64,000 nt of DNA from positions 1 to 64,000 of the forward strand of contig JAITKA010000005.1 of NCBI GenBank assembly GCA_031278635.1. Reading direction: 5' to 3'. Origin of the DNA: Deltaproteobacteria bacterium (lineage in GTDB: Bacteria; Desulfobacterota; Desulfarculia; Adiutricales; Adiutricaceae). Below, piece by piece: positions 17,497-38,356 of the stretch (positions are counted from its first letter, which is position 1; the number at the start of each line of letters is the position of its first letter). The notes under the pieces are model-generated. The model ran no database searches and was not told where the DNA came from. It saw only the letters and a list, made by a program, of their open reading frames with translations. The position numbers were made by a program, and so were the translations under genes.

Positions 17497-20400
17497 ATGT
17501 CAAATGAGTTGACAGCATTTCTCAATTTCACGTTTGAGAAAAAGCAGACTGAAACCAAGGTTGTTGAGGATGATGCCATCTCCAGCGTCTTGCGTTGGCA
17601 GCTCAATTGGCGGGAGTACGAGAGCTACCTTAGAAGCCTGGGCATAGACGCAAGCTCCGATACCAGGCCCTCCCTTTTGCGCTACGGAAACCCCCAGCCC
17701 GACGTCAGGGTTTTGGACGATCTCATCGACTTTCAAAAACATCTGCGGGGCACGATCAAGGAAATAATCAAAGATAAAAGGATAACCCCCTCTAACTATT
17801 CCAGGTTTTTCTCCGAGTCCAACGGCGTTTCGACCTACCTACCTTTGCCCGAAAACCTAAGCTACGATATAACCCCTGATAACATCGAAAGTTTAAACCT
17901 CCGGTACGGCTATGACGCCGCCACGTACCGGATTTTCATGTCCGCGGTCATTAGCGGCATGATTGTCGATAAATCCATATTCGATTTGGCCATCGACAGC
18001 GAAGGTCGTTTTTACATGGATGAGTTCGGAAGGGGGAAAACGACCATTTTCGATAGCACCCTAAGCGATCCCCGGCGCGGCCAAGGCGGGGGAGTTCCCC
18101 ATGGCGAGGGGTGGTCACGGCCCGCTAACCAATACCAAACCCTGAGGCCGTTGCCCGGTTCCAGCCAGCCCCAGACCGAGGGGCTTGGGACGGGAGGTTA
18201 TCCCGCTCCCGGGAACGGGGCCTACAACGGGCCTGCGGTAGGCCCGGCTCCCGAAAACCTTGGATTTTCCGCAGGGTTGATAGACATGCTGGCCGCGGCC
18301 ATAACCGAGCGTTTATCCGAGGCGAAAAAGCCCGCCCCGGCCAATGCCGATTCCCCCGTTGGGACGGCCCATACCATCGAGCCCGATGAAGACATCGCCC
18401 AGGATATCAGTAACGTCTCCCTTGAGGAGCACGAGGCCTATTTCTCCAGATCTTCCAAGTTCGTGGGAGCCGACGAGGATTTTGATTTCATCTGTATCCC
18501 GGAGGTGAGCGGGCCGGCGACCGGTGCTGGCCAAGGCCAAGCGGGCTTGGCCGAGACGCCGCGGGCGGATGATTTTTCGCGAGAGGCCCAAACGACCCCC
18601 CAGGGTAGCCAAGGCCTCTCCGCCCAGGGGGAATCGGCCCTGGGCCACGGGTCAATCCCGGACCAGGGGTCAGCCCAGAACCACGAGACGATGGTCCAGG
18701 ATATCCTTTCCGAAATGGCCATGATTTCCTCGGCCAATGTCGCCGATTTCAACACCCGCCTTCAGGAAATGATCAATGGCCCCGGTATGCCGCCGATGGG
18801 TGAAGGTAAGAAAGGCCCCCGTTACGGGACCGGGCCAATGGCCGATTCTACCACGGGTGGCGCCTTCGCCTCGGGGCTGACCGGGGCGCAACGCGAGGAT
18901 CATGAATATTCAAGCCCTGACGCCATTTCTTTCGAGTCCGATGAGAATTTCCAAAACGCGGATTTTATTCTCGAAGAGGTCGTTCAAGGGTCACAGATGG
19001 CGGATTTTGGGGACGACGAGCCCTTACTTTTGGAAGAGATCGTCTATGATAACAAAGTTATCGACGATGAAGATGCTTATAACCCATTCATCATCGAGAT
19101 TCCCCAAAATGATCACTCTCTGGGCTTAAGCGATGAGCCTTTGATCGATAACGCGCCCGGCCCGGAAAAAGACCCGGAGGAACGAACCTTCCCGCCTTTG
19201 ACCGAGCCCCTGATCGAGACTTTCGCCGCCCCCATAATCGAAAGCGAGCCCCCGGAACCCTTCGATACCCTGGCCCCCGCGCTCCAAAATACCGAGCCCC
19301 CGATTACCGACGCCCCGGTATCCGGCCTCCCGGTAACGGACCAGGCCGAGCCAAGCCCCGCGGCCCTGGAAGGGCCAGCGACTGACTCTTTCGACTCCCA
19401 GGGGACCGTGGCCGACCCACCGGCGGTCACCTCAACGGATTTGGGCCCCGAGCCCTCGGCCTTTGACCCCGTCGGCCTTTCGGCCGTGGGCGGGGCCCCG
19501 GAAGGGCCCAGCGCCCTGCCCCAGGACGCTGCCCTGGGGGCCGTGGTTATCCGCCCGGCGATCCCTTCAACCAATTTGGGCCCCGAGCCCTCGGCCTTTG
19601 ACCCCGTCGGCCTTTCGGCCGTGGGCTGGGCCCCGGATGGGCCCAGCGCCCTGCCCCAGGACGCGGACCTGGGGGCCGTGGTTATCCGCCTGGCGATCCC
19701 TTCAACCAATTTGGGCACCGAGCCCTCGGCCTTTGACCCCATCGGCCTTTCGGCCGTGGGTGGGGCCCAGGAAGGGCCCTGGGCCATGCCCCAGGACGCG
19801 GACCTGGGGGGCGTGGTCACGCGACCGGCGATTCCGTTTACTTATTTGACTTCCGAGCCCTCGGATTTTGACCCCATCGGCCTTTTGGTTGGGGGCGGGG
19901 AGCCGGAGGGGTCCTGGGCCATGCCCCAGGACGCGGACTTGGGGGCCGTGGCCGTTAGCCCGGCTATCGCCCCAAAGAAAATGGGTCCGGGGCCCTCGGC
20001 CTTTGACGCCATCGGCCTTTCGGCCGTGGGCGGGCCGCAGGTGGGGACCAGCTCACTGCCCCAGGACGCGGCTCTGGAGGCGGTGGTCATTCGCCCGGCG
20101 ATCGGGTCATCGAGTTTGGGTCCCGATCCCTCGGCCTTTGACGCCATCGGCCTCACGACCGCCGGGGGGGCGCAAGCCGTGGCCTACGCCATGCCCCAGG
20201 ATGCGGACTTGGAGGCCGTCGTTGCCCTCGTGGCTTCGCTGCCGGAAAGCGTTCCCGAGCCGGCCTCAAGGCGGGGGGAGGCCCAGGACGATGAGCCCAT
20301 GGACGAGATTTTGGACCTGGGGGTGGTAGCCGAGACGTTGGAGGTTTTTGGCGTCCCGGTGGCGGCGGGCCAAGGCGTTGCCGAGGAAGGGCCGGAGGGC

Positions 20401-21198
20401 GTCACGGGCGATTATCGCGGCGGGGAAAGCCCTTCAGCGTCCGGGCCAACCGATTTGGGTTTGTCGGACCCGCTGGGCCCTGACACCGGGGAGCCGGCCT
20501 CGGCGGCCGGGGAGGGGGCTTCGAGGAAGGAAAGCGTCCTCGAGAAGATGGCCCGTAAGTACCGGAATTTCGATCCGGCCTACTTTGGCGTTGAGGTCGG
20601 TGGCGACGGGGAGCCCGGCGAGACCCCGGCGACCGAGGCGGGCGGTGGCGAGCCGGCGGTAAGGTATGTCGATGACAGCCTGGATCAATCCCTGGTAAGC
20701 GGGCTGGAGCTGCCTTCCGCGGGCGAACTCCACTTGGAAGAAGGGGCCAACGTTTCGGCCGTGGGGCCGGGGGTTAACGGCCAAGGGACATTGGCCGGGG
20801 AGGCCTTGGAAGGCGCCCCCGAGGCTGTCGCGGAATCCGACCCGGCTGGGGAGGATTACGAGGAGCCGGTGCTCCTTTTGGATCAAGTCGTCGAGGAAGG
20901 CGAGGCCTTCACGGATTACGGCGCGGCGGGGCATGACGAGGCGCCGTACGATGAGACGCCATACGACGAGGTGGCGGAGGCCGCGGGGGAAGCCCCGGTG
21001 GAAGAGATGATCCAGTATCCGCTTGAGCCGTGGCCGGAGGGATTCAAGGGCAGCGACGATCAGCCGGTCGAGCACCTGCTGGCCACCATGGAGGAGAGGC
21101 TTTTCAGGAAGCGCCAATCCAGGACCTATTTGGTCCCGTCGGGGGCGAATGAGGCCAACTGGCAGGCCATGCGTAAAATTAGGCTCAAAGGCATGTGA
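17497..21198 (+). CDS. Unrecognised 1233-aa acidic protein with six 45-residue repeats
   Basis: I do not recognise this gene. The ATG at 17497 is chosen because AAGGAG lies 8 nt upstream; an in-frame ATG at 17446 lacks such a site. Residues 1-190 look globular (mixed helices, LRWQLNWREYESYLRSLG); residues about 200-1160 are low-complexity, rich in Pro, Ala, Gly, Asp and Glu and probably disordered; residues 1170-1233 are again ordered and end with a basic tail (ERLFRKRQSRTY...RKIRLKGM). Between residues 649 and 918 a 45-residue unit (LGPEPSAFDPVGLSAVGG...) is repeated six times. A short hydrophobic-acidic motif recurs three times (ILEEVV near 491, LLEEIV near 510, LLLDQVV near 1125), which could be a docking motif. 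No signal peptide, membrane helix or cysteine-rich region is seen, so it is likely cytoplasmic. Monocistronic, ending in a strong terminator. Confidence 0.85.
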   Translation: MSNELTAFLNFTFEKKQTETKVVEDDAISSVLRWQLNWREYESYLRSLGIDASSDTRPSLLRYGNPQPDVRVLDDLIDFQKHLRGTIKEIIKDKRITPSNYSRFFSESNGVSTYLPLPENLSYDITPDNIESLNLRYGYDAATYRIFMSAVISGMIVDKSIFDLAIDSEGRFYMDEFGRGKTTIFDSTLSDPRRGQGGGVPHGEGWSRPANQYQTLRPLPGSSQPQTEGLGTGGYPAPGNGAYNGPAVGPAPENLGFSAGLIDMLAAAITERLSEAKKPAPANADSPVGTAHTIEPDEDIAQDISNVSLEEHEAYFSRSSKFVGADEDFDFICIPEVSGPATGAGQGQAGLAETPRADDFSREAQTTPQGSQGLSAQGESALGHGSIPDQGSAQNHETMVQDILSEMAMISSANVADFNTRLQEMINGPGMPPMGEGKKGPRYGTGPMADSTTGGAFASGLTGAQREDHEYSSPDAISFESDENFQNADFILEEVVQGSQMADFGDDEPLLLEEIVYDNKVIDDEDAYNPFIIEIPQNDHSLGLSDEPLIDNAPGPEKDPEERTFPPLTEPLIETFAAPIIESEPPEPFDTLAPALQNTEPPITDAPVSGLPVTDQAEPSPAALEGPATDSFDSQGTVADPPAVTSTDLGPEPSAFDPVGLSAVGGAPEGPSALPQDAALGAVVIRPAIPSTNLGPEPSAFDPVGLSAVGWAPDGPSALPQDADLGAVVIRLAIPSTNLGTEPSAFDPIGLSAVGGAQEGPWAMPQDADLGGVVTRPAIPFTYLTSEPSDFDPIGLLVGGGEPEGSWAMPQDADLGAVAVSPAIAPKKMGPGPSAFDAIGLSAVGGPQVGTSSLPQDAALEAVVIRPAIGSSSLGPDPSAFDAIGLTTAGGAQAVAYAMPQDADLEAVVALVASLPESVPEPASRRGEAQDDEPMDEILDLGVVAETLEVFGVPVAAGQGVAEEGPEGVTGDYRGGESPSASGPTDLGLSDPLGPDTGEPASAAGEGASRKESVLEKMARKYRNFDPAYFGVEVGGDGEPGETPATEAGGGEPAVRYVDDSLDQSLVSGLELPSAGELHLEEGANVSAVGPGVNGQGTLAGEALEGAPEAVAESDPAGEDYEEPVLLLDQVVEEGEAFTDYGAAGHDEAPYDETPYDEVAEAAGEAPVEEMIQYPLEPWPEGFKGSDDQPVEHLLATMEERLFRKRQSRTYLVPSGANEANWQAMRKIRLKGM
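19441..20250 (+). repeat. Six in-frame 135-bp tandem repeats
   Basis: Units begin at 19441, 19576, 19711, 19846, 19981 and 20116, each exactly 135 bp. Units 1 and 2 are nearly identical, and 4 to 6 are progressively diverged, which suggests recent expansion at the 5' side. Confidence 0.9.
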
Positions 21199-22336: not shown

Positions 22337-23620
22337 TCACAGGTAAGCCTCGGCCAGGCCGTAGGGGTTTTGGGGCAGGCCGAGCCTGACCATGACCACC
22401 TCGCCGGGGTTGGCCTTGGAGTCGGGCTGGAGGAGGGCCGGGATGTAGTTGTCGGTCAGGACTTTCATCCGCCCGCTGCGGTGGAGAGTGTTTTCGATTA
22501 TGGCCCTGCGGGTGTCGCCGATTTGCGGGGCCAGAAATTCGGCCCTTTTTACGGTATCGAGTTTTTTTAGCTTGGATACCCGGGCCCTTTTGACGTCCGA
22601 GGGGATTTGATCGTTGAGGTTGAAGGCTTTGGTGCCCGGCCTTGGCGAAAACGGGAAGACGTGTAGATAGCCGAAGGGGAGGCCCTCCGTCAGCTCAAAC
22701 GTCTCCAGGAAATCCTCCTCCGTCTCGCCGGGAAAGCCAACCAGGATGTCGGTCCCGATATTGACGTGGGGAATCAACACCTTGAGCTTGACTATGAGGC
22801 AGGCGACCTGCTCCCTTGTGTAGGGCCTGCCCATGCGGTCCAGTATGGCGTCGCTCCCGCTCTGGATGGGGGTGTGGACGTGGGGCATCAGCCAGTCGTA
22901 ACCCAAAAGGGCGTCCACTATCGGCGGGACCTCCAGGGGCTCCAGGGAACTAAGCCTGATGCGCATGTCGGTCAGCCTGTGCCCCAGGACCCGGTTCGTC
23001 TCGGCCAGCAAGGTCGCCAGATCTTGGCTGGGCTCCAGGTCGCGGCCCCAAAGGCCCAGGTGGATGCCGGTCAAAACGACTTCCTTCTCGCCCATGGCCA
23101 GATAGGTCTCAAGGCCCGACAGGACCCGGCCGAGGTCGAAACTGCGGGACGGGCCCCTGGCGAAGGGCACCGCGCAGTAGGCGCAATAGGCGTCGCAACC
23201 GTCCTGGATCTTGTGTAGGGCCCTGGTCCGCCAGGGCTTGGGGTCGCCGAGGTCCCCGATGGGTTCCGCCCTGGGGGAGACCAGGGTCGTGCCGGAAGGC
23301 ATTTTCACCAACTCGGCCAGGGAGGATTTTTGGGCCTGGCCCAATACCAAATCGCAAAGGCCCTGGAGGCGGTCGGGGCTTATCTGGGCCAGGCAGCCAA
23401 CCCCGATGACCTTGGCCTGGGGGTTATGGCGCCGGAGCCGGCGGAGTATGCTGATGGCCTCGCTCTCGGCCCGGCCCGTCACGGCGCAGGTATTCAATAC
23501 CACCAAGTCCACGTCTTTGGGGGCTGAGAGCTCATAACCGCTGGTTTTTAGCATCTCAAGCATGGCGGTGGATTCAAACTGGTTGACCTTGCAACCCATA
23601 TTAATAATAGAAGCCTTCAT
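22337..23620 (-). CDS. mtaB: tRNA (N6-threonylcarbamoyladenosine(37)-C2)-methylthiotransferase MtaB
   Basis: A 427-residue methylthiotransferase. The N-terminal UPF0004 domain carries three cysteines for one Fe-S cluster (NMGCKVNQFES near 10, NTCAVTGRAE near 45, GVGCLAQ near 75). The radical SAM motif GCDAYCAYC (CxxxCxxC) lies near 142, and VHTPIQSGSD and GFPGETEEDF are typical of the family. The lack of a full MiaB/RimO signature and the CKVNQFES start favour MtaB, which adds a methylthio group to t6A37 in tRNAs reading ANN codons. Length is normal for MtaB. First gene of a two-gene minus-strand unit with the SPASM protein. Confidence 0.92.
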   Translation of the reverse strand: MKASIINMGCKVNQFESTAMLEMLKTSGYELSAPKDVDLVVLNTCAVTGRAESEAISILRRLRRHNPQAKVIGVGCLAQISPDRLQGLCDLVLGQAQKSSLAELVKMPSGTTLVSPRAEPIGDLGDPKPWRTRALHKIQDGCDAYCAYCAVPFARGPSRSFDLGRVLSGLETYLAMGEKEVVLTGIHLGLWGRDLEPSQDLATLLAETNRVLGHRLTDMRIRLSSLEPLEVPPIVDALLGYDWLMPHVHTPIQSGSDAILDRMGRPYTREQVACLIVKLKVLIPHVNIGTDILVGFPGETEEDFLETFELTEGLPFGYLHVFPFSPRPGTKAFNLNDQIPSDVKRARVSKLKKLDTVKRAEFLAPQIGDTRRAIIENTLHRSGRMKVLTDNYIPALLQPDSKANPGEVVMVRLGLPQNPYGLAEAYL

Positions 23621-24004
23621 TTACTTACTTATAAAACCCTTTAAATAGCTATTTATCATGAGAAAGAGCGTTTAGTTTTGTCGGTGGGCTAACGGGACTT
23701 ACGAAAAACGTCGGCGGGTTAACCAAAACCCGCAATCCTGGCCGGGGGCAACCCCCGGAGTGGGGGCTTAAGTAAACCGTGAACCTTGCCAGGGGCTTTC
23801 CCCGGCTCGCGGCGAGGCCTTTTCGCGCATGGGGGAAAGTGCCTGGCCAAGGTTTATTTTAATTGTTTTTTCGCCTTATCCGAGAATTTTAGTCGCGGTC
23901 AAAGGCTATTTTTTTCGTGACTAAATAACGGCGTTTCTTGGCAAAAACCCGTGCCGAAAAACGTTGCGAATGGCAAAAGCCATAAAAAAACGCCTGGCGG
24001 TTGG
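23621..24004. other. Spacer with REP-like palindromes
   Basis: No gene is seen. Palindromes CCGGGGG-CAA-CCCCCGG at 23742-23758 and CCAGGGG-CTTT-CCCCGG at about 23789-23805 resemble others in the window. Near 23983-24000 a short GC stem followed by seven T on the minus strand may terminate the M99 peptidase operon. Confidence 0.5.
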
Positions 24005-26044
24005 TTATTTGTTGACCGGGAACAGGACCACCTTGCCGGCCAGGTCCTCGTCGGTGAAAACGGCCAGGGAGACGGCGATGGACGGCATGGTCAGGGTTTG
24101 GGGGAGGCTTGGCGAAAAGGAGCGGCCCCCCAGGGTGAATTTGGGCCTGGACAGTTCCAGCCTGTTTTCCAGCTGGACTTCCTTGACGGTCACCTGGGTT
24201 CCGGGGCTTAGGCCCCAGCGTTGCCCCAGGGCCAGGACCTTCTCCGTGCCGTTGGCTTCCAGGGTCACGGATTTAAGCCTGGGCTGGGATATCTCGAGAT
24301 AGGCGGCGGCCAGGAGCTCGGGGCCATGCTCGGCGCCAAGCTGGAAGACCCGGTGTCCTTCCAGGTCCATGGCGAACCTTGCGATCATGTCCTTGGAGGT
24401 GTCGGCGGTGGTGCCCTTGTCGTTCCCTTTGGTGTCGCCTGGGCGCCCTATGAAACCCCTTAGGTTCATGACGGTATCGGAGGGCAGCGGGGTTTGGGTT
24501 TCCAGGTCGACCATGGTTACCTTGGCCCCATGCCTTAGGGTCAGGGTCTCCCCGGGCCGTAGTACGAGCCTCCGGCCATCGACTTCCAGTATGAAACCGC
24601 TCACGCCGTTCACGGTCCCGGCGGGCTCGGGCCCGCCTTGGCCCGTGGCCATTCGATCGAGGGGCGTCATGGTCAGGCTCCCGGCGGAGGCTATGGCCGG
24701 CGGCCCGTTCCTGTCCAGATCGGCGGTCGTCAGGGTCAGTTTTGCCGGCGCCGCCGGGGGATCCATGGGCGGCATGGTCATGCCAGGGAGCCAACCGGCC
24801 CCGGCCTCGACCGGGGCCACCTGGCTGGCCAGGAGAAGCCTGGGGCTGGTCTCGGTCGAGCCGGGCGGCAATAGCTTGAGGGAGATCTGCCCGAAGGTCT
24901 GGTTGTCCTTCCTGGCTATGATTTTAGTGGGTTTCTTTATCGTAAGAGGCATCCTGATGTCGTTGAGGCTTCCGGCGTCAAGGACGTCAACCGATAGGCC
25001 CCGGTCGTAATTGGCCCCGATGTGTACCACTTCCACCGTGTTCCCTGGGGCGATCATGAGGGTCTGGCCGTCGGCCACGGCCACCGGGAGCTCCCCGTTG
25101 ACCGATATGACCAGGTAATGGAGGACGGCCGGGTCAAGGTTTATCCTGGGCTGCTCCGGGATGACCCCGTACAGTTGCATGAAGGCGTTGACGGCCAGAT
25201 TGTGCTGGTGGATTTTCATCTCCAGGGAGGGGAGCTGCTTGGAGGTCTCGATGCCGAAGGCCGGGATGCCCAGTTTGGTCAGGGCGTAGAAGGTGGCGGA
25301 TTTTCTTTGCTCCGGATGGTCGGAAGTATCGCTTAGGGTGTCGTGGTTGGAGAACCTGAATTTATAGCGCTCCTCCGGGATATCCTCGTTTATGATCTCG
25401 GAGGCCCTGCGGGCGTAATCGCCCAGGTTGATGTCCCTGCCCGTTTTGGGGTCGGTGTAGACCTCGGCGTCGGCGATGATGCATTGGCCATAGCGGGAGG
25501 GGTTGGCCATTTCGCTCTCCCAGGCCGTCCTGAAAAACCCGTTGCCGTCGTGAAGGTTCAAGAACAAATCGCTTTCGGCCATGAGGTTTTTGATGATCTC
25601 GATGCGGTCCCGGTCCGGGTCCATGTCCTGGACCCCGTCGAACTTGCGGTTCATGTCCCCGTCCGGTCCACGGTCGAAGAGGATGATCGACTTGAAATTG
25701 GCCCTGGGGACGACGATGAGATTGCCCCTTTTCAGGGCCATGTCCACGTACAGGTCGGCGGACAGGAAGCCGCCCGGCTCGTCGCCCTGGATCCCACCCA
25801 TAACCATTATGGTGGGCCCCTCGTAGCGACCGTAGATTTTGTATATTTCCAGTTCCTGGGGGGTTCCCTCAAAATAGACGATATGCTGGCGATCCGACTG
25901 ACCCTGGGCCGCGAGGGGGACAGGGAGGGTCAAAAACACGAAGGCCAAAGCCCCAAAAAAATAACCTATGGCGATTCCCAAGCCTTTACGAATATTTTTG
26001 GGGGCTTCGGTCGCGGTGGATTTCATTCCGCGCCAAGGCATCAC
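24005..26044 (-). CDS. M99-family (Csd4-like) periplasmic peptidoglycan carboxypeptidase
   Basis: A 679-residue protein with an N-terminal signal/anchor (residues 20-46). The catalytic domain (about 50-290) belongs to the M14-like M99 group: Q86 and E89 in GGIQGDEPGG and H165 in LNLHDGNG form the zinc site. Helicobacter Csd4 is known for exactly this atypical Gln ligand in place of His; it trims peptidoglycan tripeptides to dipeptides and controls helical shape. FGIET near 270 is a likely catalytic-Glu region. Residues 300-679 hold repeated small beta domains (for example VNGELPVAVADGQTLMIAPG and LEVDGRRLVLRPGETLTLRHG), similar in kind to the Csd4 accessory domains. Start is GTG 26044 or ATG 26041, overlapping the upstream stop; GAGG lies just before. 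Last gene of a four-gene operon. Confidence 0.85.
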   Translation of the reverse strand: MMPWRGMKSTATEAPKNIRKGLGIAIGYFFGALAFVFLTLPVPLAAQGQSDRQHIVYFEGTPQELEIYKIYGRYEGPTIMVMGGIQGDEPGGFLSADLYVDMALKRGNLIVVPRANFKSIILFDRGPDGDMNRKFDGVQDMDPDRDRIEIIKNLMAESDLFLNLHDGNGFFRTAWESEMANPSRYGQCIIADAEVYTDPKTGRDINLGDYARRASEIINEDIPEERYKFRFSNHDTLSDTSDHPEQRKSATFYALTKLGIPAFGIETSKQLPSLEMKIHQHNLAVNAFMQLYGVIPEQPRINLDPAVLHYLVISVNGELPVAVADGQTLMIAPGNTVEVVHIGANYDRGLSVDVLDAGSLNDIRMPLTIKKPTKIIARKDNQTFGQISLKLLPPGSTETSPRLLLASQVAPVEAGAGWLPGMTMPPMDPPAAPAKLTLTTADLDRNGPPAIASAGSLTMTPLDRMATGQGGPEPAGTVNGVSGFILEVDGRRLVLRPGETLTLRHGAKVTMVDLETQTPLPSDTVMNLRGFIGRPGDTKGNDKGTTADTSKDMIARFAMDLEGHRVFQLGAEHGPELLAAAYLEISQPRLKSVTLEANGTEKVLALGQRWGLSPGTQVTVKEVQLENRLELSRPKFTLGGRSFSPSLPQTLTMPSIAVSLAVFTDEDLAGKVVLFPVNK

Positions 26045-27006
26045 TTATCCTCGATTAAAATTTTCTTTCTAAAGACCAATCGTTTCGTCTCCTCCTGCCA
26101 GGAAACCACCTCGGCGTTCAATATCTTGGCCCCTTCCGGGATCTGGGCCTGGGCCCTGACCAACTTTGAGGCGACGATGTTGTACTTGGACCCCAGCTCC
26201 CAGCCCTGCTGGGGTTTGGTCAAATCTATGGCCGGGGCCGAGACCAGGGATATTTTCCCGTCGGGATCGCTTAGGGCCAAAATGACCAAAACGCGCCCCT
26301 TGACCCTCTGCCCGGGCGTCCCGTCCTGGCGCAAGAGAAAGGTGACGTTCCCGCTGGCTGAGACCTCAAAATCATCGATGTCCAGGGCGACGGGATTGTT
26401 AACGCTCCCGGTGGCCTTATGCCATGCCTGCCAGGCGGCCTGGAGGGGGTCGCCCTCGTCCCCCTCGGCCTCGGTCGCCGGTTCCCGCGACGGGTCGGCT
26501 TCCGGGGTCACGGCGGCCTCGGCGGGGTCGGCGGGTTCACCGGTCTCCGCCGCCATGTCACCCAGGGCGGCCTGGACGACCGGGTCGGGCGGGGTTTCCC
26601 CCTCCGTCTCCGTGGGCTCGGGCACGCCGACCAGCCCAACCTCGGACTCGTCGGTCTCGGACATGACTATGGCCCTATCGAGGATTTCCAGGATTCTCCT
26701 GGCCTCCTCCGGTGCCATGGCCACCGTTTCCTTGTACTCGCGCAGCTCGTTATATTTGGTCACGATGTCCAGCTTGGAGCCGAGCGAATCCCTCTCCAAG
26801 GTTAGGTCCACGAACCGGTGGGTCAGGTAGGCCAAGGCGACCAAAATCAATACCGAGAGAATGCCCAATATCCAGAAAAAAATCGGGGAAAAGCTTAGCC
26901 TGCGAGTTTGGCCGTCGGCGCTAAGGACCAATATATGTAGTCTCTTGGGTCCCTGGTCCCGGCGGGCGAAGGCCTTGAGCGAGTTAGTGTTGGGGAATTC
27001 GGACAA
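26041..27006 (-). CDS. Membrane-anchored coiled-coil protein of the cell-shape locus
   Basis: A 321-residue protein with no family I can name. Residues 1-47 are cytoplasmic, residues about 48-66 form one transmembrane helix, residues 70-125 are likely coiled coil (LTLERDSLGSKLDIVTKYNELREYKE), residues 126-195 are an acidic Pro/Glu/Ala linker, and residues 205-321 form a beta-rich domain (ALDIDDFEVSASGNVTFLLRQ...). This layout fits a periplasmic scaffold. It overlaps the M99 peptidase start by 1-4 bp and follows the YkuD gene by 13 bp, so translation is probably coupled. A role in positioning the two peptidoglycan enzymes is inferred from context only. Confidence 0.75.
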   Translation of the reverse strand: MSEFPNTNSLKAFARRDQGPKRLHILVLSADGQTRRLSFSPIFFWILGILSVLILVALAYLTHRFVDLTLERDSLGSKLDIVTKYNELREYKETVAMAPEEARRILEILDRAIVMSETDESEVGLVGVPEPTETEGETPPDPVVQAALGDMAAETGEPADPAEAAVTPEADPSREPATEAEGDEGDPLQAAWQAWHKATGSVNNPVALDIDDFEVSASGNVTFLLRQDGTPGQRVKGRVLVILALSDPDGKISLVSAPAIDLTKPQQGWELGSKYNIVASKLVRAQAQIPEGAKILNAEVVSWQEETKRLVFRKKILIEDK

Positions 27007-27019
27007 ATGGCCTCCTTTA

Positions 27020-28921
27020 TTATGGCGTCGCTTGGAAAGATTCGGAGACGATCCGCCATTGTCCGTCCCTGGCTCCCAAAGCCAGGGTTTTCAGCCCCTG
27101 ATCGCCATGCCTGTCGCTTTTATAGCTCTGGACGAAGGTGACCGTGGCCTGGTCGCCGGAAACGTTCACGACCACGTCGCTGGCCTCGACCGAGATGTTG
27201 CCGGCTTCTTGGAACCTACGGCTACGGTATCGTTTAAAAGAGTTTAAATGCAGGTTTAAGTCCTTAAATAAAAAGTCTTTGGCATAAAAAGAAAAATAAG
27301 CCTCCTCGTCCTTGGCCGACCAAGCCCGAAGCCAGGCCCCCAATAGCTCGGAGGCCGCCTCGGCGGTCAGGGCCGAAGGCGCCGCCGGTGGTTCGCCCGC
27401 GTCAAGGGCGGCGACCTGGGCGGGTTCCGGCTCGGCCGGCTCGGTCGCTGGCTCGGCCGTGGCCGCCGCTTCCTGGGGCTCCGGCGGGGCCGTCTCGGGC
27501 TCAGTCACGATTTCGGCCTCGGCGGGGGCGGGCTCGGCCGGCGGGGGCGGGGCTTGGTTTTCCTTGATCAACTGGGACCCGACTATCCCCAGGGTCACGG
27601 TGGAGCTGGCCGCCACCATCGTGGGCGTGGCCATGCTACCCGGGCCCGCGTCCCTGGTGACCGGCAGGGGTTCCTCCTGGGCGCTTAGGCTGGCCAAAAC
27701 CGTGACCTCGGAGGCCTTGGCGTTCTGGCTGCTCCTCTGCTCCAGGGCGGCCCTGGCCGCCTCGTCGGCCGCGGCCTGGGCTTGGGTCTGGCCCTCGGGG
27801 GCTTTATTCTCGGCCACCAACGTGGGCGCCGCCGGGAGGATCGCCCCGGCCGATGCCGAGGCGGCAGGCTCGGACAGCTGGGCCACGGCCAAGGGCGGCG
27901 TGGTCAGGGCCTCGGACTTTTGCTCGGCCGTCAGCCACTTCACCGGCGGGGGGCCGGGAAGCGGCCCGTATTCCTCGGCTATGATCCGCCACGCGCCTAC
28001 CCGCCCCTTGAGATACAGCCTTTTGAAGCCGAGAGACCTAAAGCGCCCGTCGCCCCGGTAGTCCTGGGTGAAGCTGGCGATGACCGTGTCCCTGTGCCTA
28101 TAGATCCTGAGATCGGTGATGTCGATCTCGATTTTCTTGTACCCGGCGGCCACCCTTGTCTTTCGGTCCATCCAGGCCTTGTGGTTCATGCCGTCGGAAT
28201 TGTAGAAAGGATCGTCGTAATGGGAGGCGTACGCGGGGATGTTCTTTGACGACCATGCCTTTCGCCAATCCTCGACGAAAGCGCTCACGTCGTCGGCTTC
28301 TTTTTTTAGATCCTCTTTGGGTACGAAATTTACCTGCTCGTAGACCAGAATGGGCGTATCGTTAAGCTTAATCTCGTCTTCCAGGGCGGCGATATCATGG
28401 TTTTGTATCTCGATGCAACCCTCGGAATCGTAATCGACCAACGGTTTGTTGATGCCATGGGCCCAGATGCCGTCCCCGCCCCGGCCGATTTTCCGGTCAT
28501 AAAAATTCGGGTAGTCCATGGGATAGGCCAAAATCCCATAGATATCGGGTAGCTCGGAGGGCAAAAGCTTTTGGTTGAAAATGTAATACCCCTCGGGGGT
28601 TTTTTTGTCCCCCCGGATTAGCTTATCGCCTTTGATCATGCCCGTGGAACAGGGAAGGATTTTCTCGAGCCAAACGTTTCCTTGACCGTCGTGCCTATAT
28701 ATGAAAAGGAGCTGCTCGGCCTTGTTGACCACCATGATAAGCCCGGCCCTCTGGCCTGGGTAGATAATGGCATCGGGCAGGACCGGGTCGGTTTGCTGGG
28801 CCATGGCCCCAAAGGGGACGGCAAGCATGGCCAAGGCCACCACCACCCCAAACAGGGCCAGCGACGGGAACCGGCATAAGTAGGCAAAAACGTTGCTATT
28901 ATTCGCTAGGCGTCGACTCAA
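27020..28921 (-). CDS. YkuD-type L,D-transpeptidase-fold protein with two NTF2-like domains (Csd6/Pgp2-like)
   Basis: A 633-residue exported protein. Residues 1-42 contain a signal peptide (hydrophobic 20-38, AMA cut). The YkuD domain (about 58-195) has the catalytic motif with H155 (WAHG) and C169 (SEGCIEI). An NTF2-like domain follows at about 215-322 (EDWRKAWSSKNIPAYASHY), then a long Pro/Ala/Glu linker, then a second NTF2-like copy at about 525-633 (GAWLRAWSAKDEEAYFSFY). Helicobacter Csd6 and Campylobacter Pgp2 join the same two domain types and act as L,D-carboxypeptidases; the doubled NTF2 domain is an extra here. TTG start at 28921 preceded by AAAAGGG, overlapping the lipoprotein stop by 4 bp. 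Whether it cross-links or trims cannot be told from sequence. Confidence 0.86.
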   Translation of the reverse strand: MSRRLANNSNVFAYLCRFPSLALFGVVVALAMLAVPFGAMAQQTDPVLPDAIIYPGQRAGLIMVVNKAEQLLFIYRHDGQGNVWLEKILPCSTGMIKGDKLIRGDKKTPEGYYIFNQKLLPSELPDIYGILAYPMDYPNFYDRKIGRGGDGIWAHGINKPLVDYDSEGCIEIQNHDIAALEDEIKLNDTPILVYEQVNFVPKEDLKKEADDVSAFVEDWRKAWSSKNIPAYASHYDDPFYNSDGMNHKAWMDRKTRVAAGYKKIEIDITDLRIYRHRDTVIASFTQDYRGDGRFRSLGFKRLYLKGRVGAWRIIAEEYGPLPGPPPVKWLTAEQKSEALTTPPLAVAQLSEPAASASAGAILPAAPTLVAENKAPEGQTQAQAAADEAARAALEQRSSQNAKASEVTVLASLSAQEEPLPVTRDAGPGSMATPTMVAASSTVTLGIVGSQLIKENQAPPPPAEPAPAEAEIVTEPETAPPEPQEAAATAEPATEPAEPEPAQVAALDAGEPPAAPSALTAEAASELLGAWLRAWSAKDEEAYFSFYAKDFLFKDLNLHLNSFKRYRSRRFQEAGNISVEASDVVVNVSGDQATVTFVQSYKSDRHGDQGLKTLALGARDGQWRIVSESFQATP

Positions 28922-29529
28922 AGCTTGGCCCTTTTAAGGAGGCTGATCTCCCGGCTACCATAGGGGCAATCCAAGACCAGTATAGGATTTTGGTCCCATA
29001 GACCGTCAAAAGATACGGCTAAAACCTTTTCCCAAGGGTTAAATATGGGGAAATAATCTACTACGAAATTACCCTTAAGCAGCTCTTTATTGGTAGAGTC
29101 AGTCTTAAGGCCGCCGCCGGTTCTAAGCGATAGCCTAAACCGGTTGTTCTTTAAAATATCCTCGTCCTGAATATCGCGGGTATAGAGACCGACCAATACC
29201 ACGATCCTGCCCTTTGACAGCCATGTATTGATCTTCTCCATAAAACGCGGGTCCACGCCCCACTGGTTTCTGGCCTCGGCCAAAACCCTGTCGTCCAGGG
29301 CCAGGGCGTTTAGCATAATGGGCAGGACGTCACCCCTATCCGTTAGCTCATAAATCTTGTCGGAGACCGCCGTGTTCTGGATTAAATCTATCCAGTTCCT
29401 GTGCTTGGCTTCCAACTGCCGGCGACCGGGATCCATGGGACCCACGGCGCAACCCGCAACGGCCACGACAAATCCTACTATCGCCAACGCTTTAAGGGTC
29501 AGGGGAAAAATACGTTTAACCATTTCCAT
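28918..29529 (-). CDS. Lipoprotein of the cell-shape locus
   Basis: A 203-residue protein. The signal peptide ends in a lipobox (VAVAGC, Cys27), so Lgt would acylate it; residue +2 is Ala, which favours outer-membrane delivery by the enterobacterial rule. The mature part resembles short BON/YraP-type or LPS-assembly accessory domains in length and pattern (AVSDKIYELTDRGDVLPIMLNALALDDRVLAEA then GRIVVLVGLYTRD) but I cannot name a family with confidence. First gene of the operon that continues with the YkuD and M99 genes; AGAAGG lies 8 nt before the ATG at 29529. The operon position suggests an envelope partner for the peptidoglycan enzymes. Confidence 0.8.
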   Translation of the reverse strand: MEMVKRIFPLTLKALAIVGFVVAVAGCAVGPMDPGRRQLEAKHRNWIDLIQNTAVSDKIYELTDRGDVLPIMLNALALDDRVLAEARNQWGVDPRFMEKINTWLSKGRIVVLVGLYTRDIQDEDILKNNRFRLSLRTGGGLKTDSTNKELLKGNFVVDYFPIFNPWEKVLAVSFDGLWDQNPILVLDCPYGSREISLLKRAKL

Positions 29530-32288: not shown

Positions 32289-33659
32289 ATGTCAGTTCAA
32301 GAACAAATCGACACGATGATCGAAAGGTCCCGCGCGGCGCTAAAGGTCCTGGCCACGTATGACCAAGAAAAGATTGACGCGTTGTGTAAGGCCTGTTGCA
32401 TGTCCTACAGGGAACACGCGATCGAGATGTCCAAGGAAGTCATCGAGGAAACCCGGCTGGGCAACTATGACCACAAGATTATGAAGAACATGGGGACCCC
32501 GGACGGTCTCTGGTTGGAAATCAAAGGCAAAAAGAGCGTGGGCATCATTGAGGACGATCCCAAAACCGGCTTGATGAAGGTCGCCCACCCCAAAGGCTTG
32601 GTCGTCGTCGTGGCCCCCACCACCAACCCCAACATGACCGCTTTGGTTAACAGCGTGCTGTCCATCAAGGGCCGCAACACCGTCATAATTTGCTCTCACC
32701 CCAGGGCCAAGAAAACCACGGTTAACACGGTCAAGATCATGAGCGATGCCATGGAAGCCCTTGGCGCGCCCAAATACATCATTCAGGCCATCGAGGAGCC
32801 CTCGGTCGAGCTCACCCAGAAAATGATGTCCCTGGCCGACATCATCATCGCCACCGGCGGCATGGCCATGGTCAAGGCGGCTTATTCCTCCGGTAAACCC
32901 GCCTACGGGGTCGGCTCCGGCAACGTCCAGTCCATCGTCGATCGCGACTTTGACCTGAAAGCGGCCATCGGGATGATAGTCATGGGCCGCTCCTTTGACA
33001 ACGGCCAGGTTTGCGCCTGCAACCAAAGCGCCATCGTCCCCGAGGAGAAGCTCCCGGAAGTCATCCAGCTGCTCAAGGAGAACGGGGCCGCCTATTTCGA
33101 TGATCCCGCCGACATCGACAAGATCCGTCAGACCGTCTTCAAAAACGGCGTCCACAACTCCGCGGTCGTCGGTCAATTCCCAAAGACCATCGCGGACCTG
33201 GCCGGGGTTAAGGTCGATGAAAAAGCCTCCATTATCGCCGTGTTGGGCGACCCGAACAAGGTTGGCGCCAACGAGCTCCTGTGCGGCGAGAAGATGTGCC
33301 CCGTTTTGATCGTGATCCCGTACAAGACTTACGATCAGGCCCTAGAGATCGCCAAGGCTAACCTGCTTTACAGCGGGGCGGGCCACAGCTGCTGCGTCTA
33401 TTCCAATACCCAGGAAAACATCAATAAGGTCGGTCTGACCATGCCGGTTTGCCGGGTTCTGGTCAACCAGCCGGGCATGGGCGCGGCTAACGCCTTCGGG
33501 AATAACGCCCTGTGCTCCACCTCGACGCTGGGTTGCGGTACCTACGGCAACAATAGCTTGGACGAAAACCTTAACTACCGGCACATGATCAACGTCACCC
33601 AGGTGGCCAAGGTCAATCCCAGTTTCGTGCCCGTCCCCGAGGATCAAGTCTACAAATAA
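32289..33659 (+). CDS. CoA-acylating aldehyde dehydrogenase (SucD/SauS-like)
   Basis: A 456-residue enzyme of the acylating aldehyde dehydrogenase group, which oxidises an aldehyde to acyl-CoA with NAD(P)+ or runs in reverse. The catalytic Cys242 sits in SFDNGQVCAC, where relatives read SFDNGxxCAS; GSGN near 215 and ATGG near 195 are nucleotide-site elements. Length matches stand-alone family members such as succinate-semialdehyde or sulfoacetaldehyde dehydrogenase rather than fused AdhE. A microcompartment N-terminal targeting tail is not seen. SD AAGGGAG precedes the ATG at 32289. First gene of the operon with phosphotransacylase and acyl kinase downstream, which fits an aldehyde to acyl-CoA to acyl phosphate route. 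The true substrate is unknown. Confidence 0.9.
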   Translation: MSVQEQIDTMIERSRAALKVLATYDQEKIDALCKACCMSYREHAIEMSKEVIEETRLGNYDHKIMKNMGTPDGLWLEIKGKKSVGIIEDDPKTGLMKVAHPKGLVVVVAPTTNPNMTALVNSVLSIKGRNTVIICSHPRAKKTTVNTVKIMSDAMEALGAPKYIIQAIEEPSVELTQKMMSLADIIIATGGMAMVKAAYSSGKPAYGVGSGNVQSIVDRDFDLKAAIGMIVMGRSFDNGQVCACNQSAIVPEEKLPEVIQLLKENGAAYFDDPADIDKIRQTVFKNGVHNSAVVGQFPKTIADLAGVKVDEKASIIAVLGDPNKVGANELLCGEKMCPVLIVIPYKTYDQALEIAKANLLYSGAGHSCCVYSNTQENINKVGLTMPVCRVLVNQPGMGAANAFGNNALCSTSTLGCGTYGNNSLDENLNYRHMINVTQVAKVNPSFVPVPEDQVYK

Positions 33660-33668
33660 CCACGCTAA

Positions 33669-33692
33669 GCCGGGGCCCGGCCGGGCCCCGGC
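33669..33692 (+). other. Intercistronic GC hairpin
   Basis: GCCGGGGCCC and GGGCCCCGGC form a perfect 10-bp stem with a GGCC loop between the aldehyde dehydrogenase and phosphotransacylase genes, without a T-run. It may slow decay of the upstream message or lower downstream expression. Confidence 0.6.
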
Positions 33693-33721
33693 CCGCCTAA
33701 ATAAAAGAAGGATATTCGAAG

Positions 33722-34627
33722 ATGGAATACTACAAAGATTGGGACGAGGTCATAAAAAGCGTCAGGGGCGGCGACAAGGTCAAAAAAGTCGTCGTGGCTT
33801 CTGGCCAGGATGACCATAGCATCGAAGCCGTGGCCAAGGTGGCCCAAGACGGTTTAGTCAGTCCCGTTCTGGTGGGCGATATCAATTTGATTAAGCCTTT
33901 GCTTGATAAATACGGCCTCAAGGTTGACCCGGAAAATATCCACCATCAACCGGACCCGAACGAGGCGGCTAAGACGTCGGTCAAACTTATCAAGGAGAAT
34001 AAAGGCGACTTTTTGATGAAAGGGAGCCTGGAGACGAGCCAGCTTCTTAAAGCGGTGGTCGATAAGGAGAACGGTCTAGGCAAAGGTAGGCTTATGAGTC
34101 ACGTTGCTTACCAGCAAATGCCCGCTTACCACAAAATGCTGGTCTCTACCGACGGGGGTATGGTCGTTAACCCGGATCTGTTGCAAAAAAAAGAGATCCT
34201 ACAAAACGCAGTCGATACGCTGTTGGCTTTGGGTTACGACAAACCGAAAGTCGCCGTGTTGGCGGCGGTTGAAAAGGTCAACCCGAAAATGCCCGAGTCG
34301 GTTGACGGCGAGGCCTTAAAAATCATGAACCAGAAGGGGGAAATCACCGGCTGCGTGGTCGAGGGCCCCATTTCCATGGATTTGGCCTTGGTCAAAGAAA
34401 AGGCCGTGATCAAAAAGTATGAGAGCCCGGTGGCGGGCGACGCCGACATTTTGCTGGTGCCAAACATAGTCACCGGGAACTGCGTGGGCAAGGCTTTCAT
34501 CGAGATGGCCGGGGCCAAGATGGCCGGGCTAATCGTGGGGGCCAAGGTTCCCATAGTGGTCACCTCGAGGGCCTCGTCGGCAGAGGAAAAGTACCTCTCC
34601 CTGATATTGGCTGCCGCTGGCGCGTAA
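33722..34627 (+). CDS. Phosphate acyltransferase (phosphate butyryltransferase family)
   Basis: A 301-residue protein of the Pta/Ptb fold. Length and pattern (VVASGQDDHSIEAVAKVAQDGLVSPVLVG at the N-terminus, GPISMDLALVKEKA near 220, ADILLVPNIVTGN near 240) match phosphate butyryltransferase rather than the longer acetyl form. It converts acyl-CoA and phosphate to acyl phosphate and CoA. Between the acylating aldehyde dehydrogenase and a butyrate-kinase-like gene it provides the middle step of substrate-level phosphorylation. No crotonase, thiolase or butyryl-CoA dehydrogenase genes are nearby, so butyrate itself is not implied; the acyl group follows whatever aldehyde the cluster uses. Ribosome site GAAGGA upstream of the ATG at 33722. 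Confidence 0.9.
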   Translation: MEYYKDWDEVIKSVRGGDKVKKVVVASGQDDHSIEAVAKVAQDGLVSPVLVGDINLIKPLLDKYGLKVDPENIHHQPDPNEAAKTSVKLIKENKGDFLMKGSLETSQLLKAVVDKENGLGKGRLMSHVAYQQMPAYHKMLVSTDGGMVVNPDLLQKKEILQNAVDTLLALGYDKPKVAVLAAVEKVNPKMPESVDGEALKIMNQKGEITGCVVEGPISMDLALVKEKAVIKKYESPVAGDADILLVPNIVTGNCVGKAFIEMAGAKMAGLIVGAKVPIVVTSRASSAEEKYLSLILAAAGA

Positions 34628-34639
34628 TAGGATAAGGAA

Positions 34640-35704
34640 ATGAGCGAGAAGATCTTAGTCTTAAACCCAGGCTCCCAGTCAACCAAAATCGCCATGTATA
34701 ACGGTGGCGAAAGAAAGTGGCAAAAAAATATCGAACACTCCATAGAGGAACTAAAAAAATACCCCAATGTCTATGATCAGACGGACATGCGTTACGAACT
34801 GATCATAAAATCGGTGGCCGAGAATAATGACACCCTGTCCGATCTCTCGGCCGTGGCCTGCAGGGGTGGCCCGGTGACGGTATACAAAAGCGGTGGCTAC
34901 GAGGTTACCGACGAGTTGATTAGGCTCGCCAGGGAAAAGCCGATGTCCATTCACGTTTCCAACGCGGCGATGGGGATTGGCAAAAAGATAGCCGATTCCT
35001 TGGGGGTCAAGTGCTACATATACGACGGCGTCACGGTGGACGAGATGATCCCCATCGTCAAAGTCACCGGGCTAAAGGAAATGAGCCGTCGGGGCCAGGG
35101 GCATACCCTGAACATGCGGGCCGCGGCCATAAAACTGTGCGAGCAAAACGGCTGGGACTATTACGCCAAAAATATAGCCGTGGCCCACCTAGGGGGCGGC
35201 ATCACCCTCAGCTTGCACAGCAACGGGGTGATCATCGACATGATCTCCGACGACGAAGGGCCTTATTCCCCTGAACGCGCCGGGGGCCTGCCAGGGTTCC
35301 AGCTGATAAATGAATGCTTTTCGGGGGCCTATACCGAGGAATCCATGTTTAAGCGCATCCAGAGGGCCGGGGGCTTGATGGCCCACCTGGGCGTCACCGA
35401 CATAAGGGAGGTTGAAAAGAGGATCTCGGACGGCGACCAAAAGGCCAAGCTTGTCTATGAAGCCATGGCCCTAAACGTGGCCAAAAACCTAGCCAAGCTG
35501 GCCGTAACCGTGAAGGGTCAGATTGACTCCTTTGTTTTAACTGGCGGTATCGCCTATTCCGAATATTTCTGCGGAATGGTGATCGACTACATTCAGTTTT
35601 TAGCGCCTGTTTCGGTTCTTCCTGGGGAAAATGAGATGGATGCTTTGGCCTTTGGGGTAGCAAGGATCCTTAAGGGTGAAGAAAAGCCTAATAAGTTTAA
35701 CTAA
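34640..35704 (+). CDS. Acyl kinase of the butyrate kinase family
   Basis: A 354-residue ASKHA-fold kinase. It starts with the family phosphate-1 motif LVLNPGSQSTKIAMY, has VACRGGPV near 75, HLGGGITLSLH near 187 and the adenosine-site LTGGIAYS near 300. Butyrate kinases are 350-360 residues with this start, while acetate kinases are near 400. It transfers phosphate from acyl phosphate to ADP, giving ATP and the acid. It follows the phosphotransacylase by 12 bp (AAGGAA ribosome site) and ends the three-enzyme core. Substrate length or side group cannot be told; the two transporters and DUF1537 neighbour suggest an acid with extra functional groups. Confidence 0.92.
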   Translation: MSEKILVLNPGSQSTKIAMYNGGERKWQKNIEHSIEELKKYPNVYDQTDMRYELIIKSVAENNDTLSDLSAVACRGGPVTVYKSGGYEVTDELIRLAREKPMSIHVSNAAMGIGKKIADSLGVKCYIYDGVTVDEMIPIVKVTGLKEMSRRGQGHTLNMRAAAIKLCEQNGWDYYAKNIAVAHLGGGITLSLHSNGVIIDMISDDEGPYSPERAGGLPGFQLINECFSGAYTEESMFKRIQRAGGLMAHLGVTDIREVEKRISDGDQKAKLVYEAMALNVAKNLAKLAVTVKGQIDSFVLTGGIAYSEYFCGMVIDYIQFLAPVSVLPGENEMDALAFGVARILKGEEKPNKFN

Positions 35705-35711
35705 CCTAAAT

Positions 35712-35741
35712 CCCTTAGGATCACAAAAATGATCCTAAGGG
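35712..35741 (+). other. Intra-operon hairpin after the acyl kinase
   Basis: CCCTTAGGATCA and TGATCCTAAGGG form a perfect 12-bp stem with a CAAAAA loop 8 bp after the kinase stop. There is no T-run, so it may be a partial terminator or mRNA stabiliser between enzyme and transporter genes. Confidence 0.6.
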
Positions 35742-35819
35742 CTGGGAGAGGCTAAACTCTTTGGCTAAAACCAAATCACCGGACGCTTCCCTTGGGCGGC
35801 ACCGAGAAATAGGATTCAT

Positions 35820-37049
35820 ATGAGTCAAAACACGCCGGCAATAACCGCGGGCTCTGGACCTAGCGGCTTACGATACCTCTACTTGGCTTTAGGGATAGTG
35901 CTTCTTCTAGCCATGGGTCTCGTTTACGCTTGGTCGATTTTCGTTCCGCCCTTGGCGGCCGAGTTTGGTTGGGACCCCTCCAAAACTTCCATGGGTTTCA
36001 CCATACTCATGTCCATGTTCTGTTTAGGCGGTATCGCGACAGGGCTTATAACAAAAAAATACCCGGTCGGCTTGGTGGTTTTTTTAAGCGCCCTTTTGGT
36101 CGGTGGGGGCTTTTACGCTTCTTCAACCCTCCAGAGTTTGGCCGGGTTATATCTCTTTTTTAGCGTCATGGTCGGCTTAGGCGTCGGGATGACGTATAAC
36201 GCCGTATTAAGCTCGATCCTCAAGTGGTTTCCCGACAAAATCGGTTTGATTTCCGGTTTATTGATGATGGGATTTGGCTTGGGGAGTTTCATCTTAAGTA
36301 CCGTCGGCACTTCCTCGATCCAAAATTATGGTTGGCGCGCGACATTCGTAAGGCTGGGCATAGTTTACTTCTTTGTCATTTTAATCTGCTCATTTTTTGT
36401 TAGACCTCCAGGGCCCGGAGTCGTTTTCAAAAAACCAAGCCAGGTGAAAAAGAAGGCTGAAGATGGCTTAGAGCTTCCAGCCAGCCAAATGTTGAAACGT
36501 CAAGCTTTTTGGTTCTTTTTCCTATGGGCCGTTGTCTTAACGGCGGCATCGCTGATGGTTATCGGCGCCGCCACACCCATAGCCAGAAGTTTAGGGGCCG
36601 ATAGTATTAAGGCCGGGTTCTTAACCGGGATGATAGCCATATCCAATGGTTGCGGCCGAGTCATTGCCGGTGTCTTACACGACAAACTGGGCCGTAAAAT
36701 AGTCCTCCCCATATATAGCGTTCTTTTCACGGTAACCGGTTGCGTTCTGTATCTGGCAATAACCAGCCAGAGCTTAACCCTGATCACCGTTGGTTTTCTG
36801 ATGACCGGCTTGGCCTACGGCGGTATCCCGCCCTCAAGCTCTACCGTGATCAGTCGCTTTTATGGGCAAAAAAATTACTCCTTAAATTTCAGCTTGGCCA
36901 ATACCAGTATTTTGGCGGCATCCTTCCTAGGCCCGGCTTTGGCCGGTCAAATGCAGTCAAAAAGCCAAAGTTATGGCAGTACTTTTATGGCCATCATCAT
37001 TTTTGGGGTTCTTTCGATAGCATTTTGCTTCAAGATTAGAAGACCATAA
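35820..37049 (+). CDS. MFS transporter, oxalate:formate antiporter (OFA) type
   Basis: A 409-residue protein with twelve predicted membrane helices (first near 20-42) and a central loop at about 200-225. The start GLVYAWSIFVPPLAAEFGWDPSKTSMGFTI and the FSLANTSILAASFLGPALAG motif near the end are typical of the OFA branch of the major facilitator superfamily, which moves small mono- and dicarboxylates. It likely imports the substrate or exports the acid product of the cluster. It lies 115 bp after the acyl kinase behind a hairpin and is less GC-rich than the second MFS gene at 39310. The exact cargo is unknown. Confidence 0.88.
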   Translation: MSQNTPAITAGSGPSGLRYLYLALGIVLLLAMGLVYAWSIFVPPLAAEFGWDPSKTSMGFTILMSMFCLGGIATGLITKKYPVGLVVFLSALLVGGGFYASSTLQSLAGLYLFFSVMVGLGVGMTYNAVLSSILKWFPDKIGLISGLLMMGFGLGSFILSTVGTSSIQNYGWRATFVRLGIVYFFVILICSFFVRPPGPGVVFKKPSQVKKKAEDGLELPASQMLKRQAFWFFFLWAVVLTAASLMVIGAATPIARSLGADSIKAGFLTGMIAISNGCGRVIAGVLHDKLGRKIVLPIYSVLFTVTGCVLYLAITSQSLTLITVGFLMTGLAYGGIPPSSSTVISRFYGQKNYSLNFSLANTSILAASFLGPALAGQMQSKSQSYGSTFMAIIIFGVLSIAFCFKIRRP

Positions 37050-37129
37050 CCCCTTAAAACAATTTTTGTCCCAAAACCAAGCCAGGAAAAGCAAACGCGA
37101 GGCTATATAGGTTTTAGATAGGAGACGAC

Positions 37130-38293: not shown

Positions 38294-38304
38294 CGACGTG
38301 GACA

Positions 38305-38334
38305 AAAGCCGTGGGTTACCAAACCCACGGCTTT
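38305..38334 (+). terminator. Hairpin terminator after the alcohol dehydrogenase
   Basis: AAAGCCGTGGGTT and AACCCACGGCTTT form a perfect 13-bp stem with a 4-nt loop, 11 bp after the stop. The T-run is only three bases. Confidence 0.65.
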
Positions 38335-38356
38335 AAAGTCTCCGGAGGCAGTTTCC

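Follow-up and report, generated by a model that had tools for sequence, protein, structure and literature searches.

A four-gene operon from an Adiutricaceae genome encoding putative M99 and YkuD carboxypeptidases, a candidate bactofilin adaptor and a lipoprotein

In Helicobacter and Campylobacter, LD- and DL-carboxypeptidases contribute to the helical shape of the cell. Characterised peptidases of the M99 family have roles in shape-related trimming. Csd4 is such a shape-related M99 enzyme (PMC3310797, PMC4220969), and the paper describing its structure assigned the metal-binding and catalytic residues together with two key arginines (PMC4220969). Bd1075, Csd6 and Pgp2 are shape-determining LD-carboxypeptidases, Bd1075 being the enzyme that gives Bdellovibrio its curvature (PMC8938487). 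For Bd1075, the NTF2 domain is the sole known targeting determinant. In most transpeptidases the second residue behind the catalytic Cys (Cys+2) is Arg, the corresponding residue being Ala in Csd6 and Pgp2 and Val in Bd1075 (PMC8938487). A direct connection between a wall enzyme and bactofilin has been described for LmdC, whose cytoplasmic hairpin binds bactofilin (PMC10945521).

We analysed a stretch of 64,000 nucleotides, hereafter the window, in which relatives of both kinds of carboxypeptidase are encoded in one operon. The proteins nearest to its M99 peptidase belong to deltaproteobacterial metagenome-assembled genomes (MAGs), and MAGs of Candidatus Adiutrix, a termite-gut bacterium (Desulfarculia, Adiutricales, Adiutricaceae), were also present in the set. 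These nearest relatives, which are Adiutricaceae and other Desulfarculia, rule out a Desulfovibrio origin, and they are the basis on which we assign the window to a family. The "Desulfovibrio-type" host proposed in an earlier note on this DNA therefore has to be abandoned; in other respects the earlier interpretation was mostly sound: the operon stood, as did the assignment of both enzymes and the presence of two further envelope proteins. The four-protein trimming complex and the curved or helical shape suggested there are conjectural.

The operon and its two enzymes

Four tightly packed minus-strand open reading frames occupy positions 24005-29529. The first gene of the operon encodes a lipoprotein (28918-29529, ATG start, 203 aa) and overlaps by 4 nt with the gene for a YkuD enzyme (27020-28921, TTG start, 633 aa), which is followed after a gap of 13 nt by the gene for a single-pass coiled-coil protein, here called CC (26041-27006, TTG start, 321 aa), which in turn overlaps by 4 nt with the M99 peptidase gene (24005-26044, GTG start, 679 aa). 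These open reading frames agree with the previous description of a four-gene operon with overlapping or nearly touching genes, in which a lipoprotein and a single-pass coiled-coil protein accompany both enzymes. With ATG predicted for the lipoprotein gene alone, and GTG or TTG for the other three genes, exact start positions are uncertain. A terminator-like hairpin followed by a T run (23714-23733, minus strand) was picked up between M99 and the next same-strand gene by a consensus scan only, and the region as a whole contains about as many such sites as expected from shuffled sequence. The next gene (22337-23620, minus strand) encodes an MtaB-like tRNA methylthiotransferase that scores over the cut-off of the NCBIfam subfamily model TIGR00089 and just under that of the MtaB-specific model. 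This gene, a neighbour at 22 of 70 well-flanked M99 loci, is conserved beside the operon in Adiutricales, and it is probably merely a neighbour outside the trimming system. MtaB and a radical SAM gene had also been considered as functional partners, and both were set aside and treated as neighbours only.

The M99 protein matched PF17033 in Pfam with 128.4 bits (cut-off 27) and aligned to Csd4 structures with an E-value of about 1e-31. In this alignment Q86, E89 and H165 correspond to Gln46, Glu49 and His128 of the Csd4 metal site (QxxE...H), and R125, N132, R133 and E266 are the equivalents of Arg86, Asn93, Arg94 and Glu222, so that none of the seven key Csd4 residues is missing; all seven are also invariant across 11 diverse members. 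The Gln-x-x-Glu plus His site of the Helicobacter Csd4 type, previously read from the sequence, is thus real. The M99 domain and the seven residues are shared with Helicobacter pylori Csd4 and Campylobacter Pgp1. However, the window protein has 679 aa instead of about 438 aa, with an extra C-terminal region; for residues 320-679, in which the C-terminal Ig-like domains typical of Csd4/Pgp1 would be expected, Pfam gave zero matches. Unlike Csd4 and Pgp1, it is encoded in an operon with a YkuD enzyme and CC. It is the product of the only M99 gene in the window's genome and, judging from its sequence, is probably a Csd4/Pgp1-type DL-carboxypeptidase with a long C-terminal extension.

The YkuD protein is composed of a signal peptide, a YkuD domain (residues 63-192, PF03734), a Cds6_C NTF2-like domain (212-317, PF24125), a linker rich in Pro, Ala and Glu, and a second NTF2-like module (525-627, Pfam), which was absent from the earlier note. 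Its top match in the PDB was Bd1075 (7o21, E-value 2e-50), followed by Csd6 (4xzz) and Pgp2 (6xj6). Pfam and PDB matches are thus both in line with the combination of YkuD and NTF2-like domains already recognised as that of Csd6/Pgp2, with Bd1075 as the nearest relative. The YkuD domain, an NTF2-like domain and the catalytic His and Cys (His155 and Cys169, both intact) are common to Bd1075, Csd6, Pgp2 and the window protein, whereas the long linker, the presence of two NTF2-like modules instead of a single NTF2 domain, and the Glu at Cys+2 (Glu171) set the latter apart. Because the second NTF2-like module is an addition to the core architecture, we count the protein as a variant. Across 87 YkuD homologues the Cys+2 position is occupied by Glu, Val, Ala, Thr or Ser, and by Arg in none, and the window protein is probably an LD-carboxypeptidase.

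The single-pass coiled-coil protein

CC has no covering Pfam family. Its AlphaFold2 model, built from an 84-row alignment (mean pLDDT 83), comprises a beta-hairpin (strands 23-28 and 34-39), a helix that includes the transmembrane segment and the coiled coil (41-117) and, beyond a disordered linker, a beta-sandwich (208-317); the hairpin is predicted to be cytoplasmic and the beta-sandwich periplasmic. Foldseek searches with the full model returned weak beta-sandwich matches and nothing stronger, probably because the long helix dominates.

A CC profile also picked up the N-terminal parts of M23 peptidases that have an LmdC-like build and a length of about 290-320 aa. In HHalign, the N-terminus of CC against those of LmdC-type M23 proteins, a comparison set itself selected through CC matches, gave 97.3%, while neither 60 full column shuffles nor the N-termini of M99, YkuD and the lipoprotein exceeded 1.9%. 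Shuffling of the hairpin columns alone left a mean of 77%, which means that a large share of the signal comes from the membrane helix; the CC hairpin against the LmdC-type hairpin only gave 92.5%. In the M23 protein of the window's own genome (L179), selected through Pfam only, a similar motif can be seen by eye, and the HHalign value for this single sequence was no more than 45.5%. CC shares its predicted hairpin, membrane helix and coiled coil with the LmdC-type M23 endopeptidases of Hyphomonas and Rhodospirillum, and the operon link to bactofilin found in LmdC-type systems recurs with CC in the window's relatives. In contrast, the modelled beta-sandwich of CC sits where LmdC has its M23 peptidase, Pfam matched no M23 domain in CC, and the enzymes of the CC system are separate proteins. 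CC is consequently no LmdC, yet its working mode may be LmdC-like.

In H. pylori, a single membrane helix of Csd5 connects the bactofilin CcmA in the cytoplasm with the periplasm, and the same arrangement is proposed here for CC. Pfam detected no Csd5-type SH3 domain in CC, and Csd7 has several membrane helices whereas CC has one; CC is therefore neither Csd5 nor Csd7. Two loci, L121 and L177, encode a fusion of the CC beta-sandwich with the YkuD-NTF2 enzyme, maybe owing to a single event, since both fused proteins are alike. From linkage, hairpin resemblance and this domain fusion we infer that CC is a trans-membrane adaptor through which the enzymes would be targeted.

Gene order, bactofilin and the lipoprotein among relatives

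Among 70 distinct, well-flanked M99 loci, both YkuD and CC lie upstream of M99 at 60, and a bactofilin, identified by Pfam, lies directly downstream at 28; the lipoprotein is found at 24, lipoprotein and adjacent bactofilin together at none, and M99 stands alone without operon partners at 5, all conservation counts given here and below being inflated by the relatedness of the genomes. Because these loci had been found through M99, a second sample was drawn, consisting of 198 genomes of the phylum not chosen for the cluster. CC was detected in 43 of them, M99 over the cut-off in 40 and both in 29, and CC adjoins M99 in 23 of the latter and is apart from it in 6. The gene order is conserved far above chance.

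In most genomes of the window's family the order is lipoprotein-YkuD-CC-M99-mtaB, and in Desulfarculaceae, other families of the class and Desulfobacterales it is YkuD-CC-M99-bactofilin. Seven genomes of one genus (g17) have no M99; among the four loci read there, YkuD-CC-bactofilin is found in three (L152, L157 and L161), and CC and bactofilin were detected in the fourth. All four loci selected through CC (L175-L178) have YkuD-CC-M99, with bactofilin adjacent in three.

No bactofilin gene was found adjacent to the operon, either in the window or elsewhere in its order, Adiutricales. The sole bactofilin of the window's genome is encoded on another contig (G000:C8:2663-2947) and falls in a non-operonic clade; the tree, based on few columns and containing a number of long branches, gives no support to this gene being a relocated operonic copy. 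The bactofilin link is therefore weakest in the window's own lineage, which lacks an operonic bactofilin and retains one of another clade.

The lipobox Cys27 is present in 28 out of 28 homologues of the lipoprotein, and in none of them does Asp directly follow it. According to the sorting rule of E. coli lipoproteins, the membrane destination is read from an Asp after the lipobox Cys. Applied here, this rule indicates the outer membrane, where the lipoprotein is probably located. The protein had no match in Pfam or NCBIfam, and its confident AlphaFold2 model (mean pLDDT 92.7) gave no Foldseek match in the PDB at E<=0.001. Its distribution is confined to Adiutricales and one Desulfobacteraceae contig; it is not a general component of the system, bactofilin being the more widespread fourth gene.

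Some loci depart from these arrangements. At two (L173, 75-3438; L174, 2688-5994) a YkuD-CC pair has neither M99 nor bactofilin next to it; the YkuD protein of L173 has, by eye, apparently three NTF2-like modules, and in both genomes M99 proteins with much higher PF17033 scores are located elsewhere. At three loci in MAGs labelled Desulfovibrio (L086, L090 and L094) M99 is alone, with neither YkuD nor CC detected nearby. The LmdC-like M23 gene of the window's genome (L179, G000:C110:13545-13832), whose product has an N-terminal hairpin-like motif, is not on the contig of the bactofilin, and its product could be the partner of this lone bactofilin.

Proposed mechanism and alternative readings

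We postulate, with a probability of roughly 0.6, that the operon belongs to the Csd/Pgp/Bd1075 shape systems as a variant linked to bactofilin, with CC as adaptor and stepwise trimming from tetrapeptides to tripeptides and dipeptides, as would follow from the families of the two enzymes. The YkuD enzyme, acting as LD-carboxypeptidase, would strip D-Ala from tetrapeptides, and the M99 enzyme, acting as DL-carboxypeptidase, would then strip meso-DAP from the resulting tripeptides to leave dipeptides. This carboxypeptidase model is supported by the fact that both enzymes keep their key residues and that the YkuD enzyme, as Csd6, Pgp2 and Bd1075, is without Arg at Cys+2. Trimming would alter the cross-linking potential along part of the sidewall and in this way cell shape, a role that is our best inference and that is strengthened by the bactofilin gene which relatives have in this operon. 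CC would hold the YkuD enzyme by its periplasmic beta-sandwich and dock by its cytoplasmic hairpin onto a bactofilin polymer, whose gene many relatives carry in the operon itself. In Adiutricales this gene would have been lost from the operon, with CC retaining its hairpin and possibly using the unlinked bactofilin, and the operon-encoded outer-membrane lipoprotein might anchor or position the enzymes from outside. Counting against this model are the 5 lone M99 loci out of 70, the 6 of 29 genomes in which CC and M99 lie apart, and, in the window's genome, a distant bactofilin of the non-operonic clade that could have the LmdC-like M23 protein as its partner.

The same enzymes might serve general peptidoglycan trimming or recycling, or control the attachment of outer-membrane proteins to the wall, instead of shape, the lipoprotein being a client or an envelope anchor. 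Such a role would fit the lipoprotein that is the first gene of the operon here and a weak match of the YkuD domain, far under the cut-off, to DpaA/YafK, which detaches Braun's lipoprotein; in addition, the papers that we consulted gave no data on cell shape or muropeptides in Adiutricaceae. We nevertheless consider it unlikely, given that the YkuD protein is far nearer to Bd1075, Csd6 and Pgp2, that characterised M99 enzymes, Csd4 among them, act in shape-related trimming, that relatives show the bactofilin linkage, and that the lipoprotein is restricted to Adiutricales and one other contig.

It could also be supposed that in the window's lineage the module is free of bactofilin, CC being an inner-membrane anchor only and the lipoprotein an outer-membrane spatial cue. 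Lipoprotein and adjacent bactofilin indeed never co-occur in the 70 loci, the genome's own bactofilin is from another clade, and there is a precedent in Rhodospirillum rubrum, with a porin-lipoprotein complex as spatial cue (PMC11369160). However, the exclusion counts as few independent events because it opposes mostly one clade to the rest, and the hairpin is retained in the AlphaFold2 model of the window's CC, so that this variant appears doubtful to us. A true L,D-transpeptidase forming 3-3 cross-links, with M99 trimming the remainder, would agree with a YkuD fold carrying His and Cys, but it is very improbable in view of the lack of Arg at Cys+2 in every homologue and of closest solved relatives that are carboxypeptidases.

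New here are CC as a proposed adaptor, the linkage to bactofilin seen in relatives and, in Adiutricales, a lipoprotein in the place of bactofilin. A literature search, with subscription journals mostly outside its coverage, found no paper on bactofilin with M99 and one, on Caulobacter stalks, that mentions bactofilin and YkuD. Both enzymes, a single-pass adaptor and bactofilin in one operon offer a concrete, testable link to steering from inside the cell in the bactofilin-linked shape system postulated above. More tentatively, such operons might represent a second, widespread route of bactofilin-steered wall hydrolysis, in which an enzyme-free adaptor with an LmdC-type hairpin and a new beta-sandwich carries two carboxypeptidases, and in which the cytoskeletal partner has been replaced in termite-gut Adiutricales by an outer-membrane lipoprotein without a solved structural relative.

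Other features of the window lie on the plus strand. A 3137-aa autotransporter (1838-11251) combines PATR repeats with a subtilase domain at the N-terminus and a beta-barrel at the C-terminus, and a 1250-aa acidic protein without Pfam match (17446-21198) is encoded by a gene containing about six tandem repeats of 135 bp (45 aa), about 80% alike, at 19420-20219. A cluster at 32289-39271 encodes an acylating aldehyde dehydrogenase, which falls short of the cut-off in both the acetaldehyde and the sulfoacetaldehyde model, a phosphate butyryltransferase-like protein, a butyrate kinase, an MFS transporter, an Fe-alcohol dehydrogenase and an AraC-type regulator.
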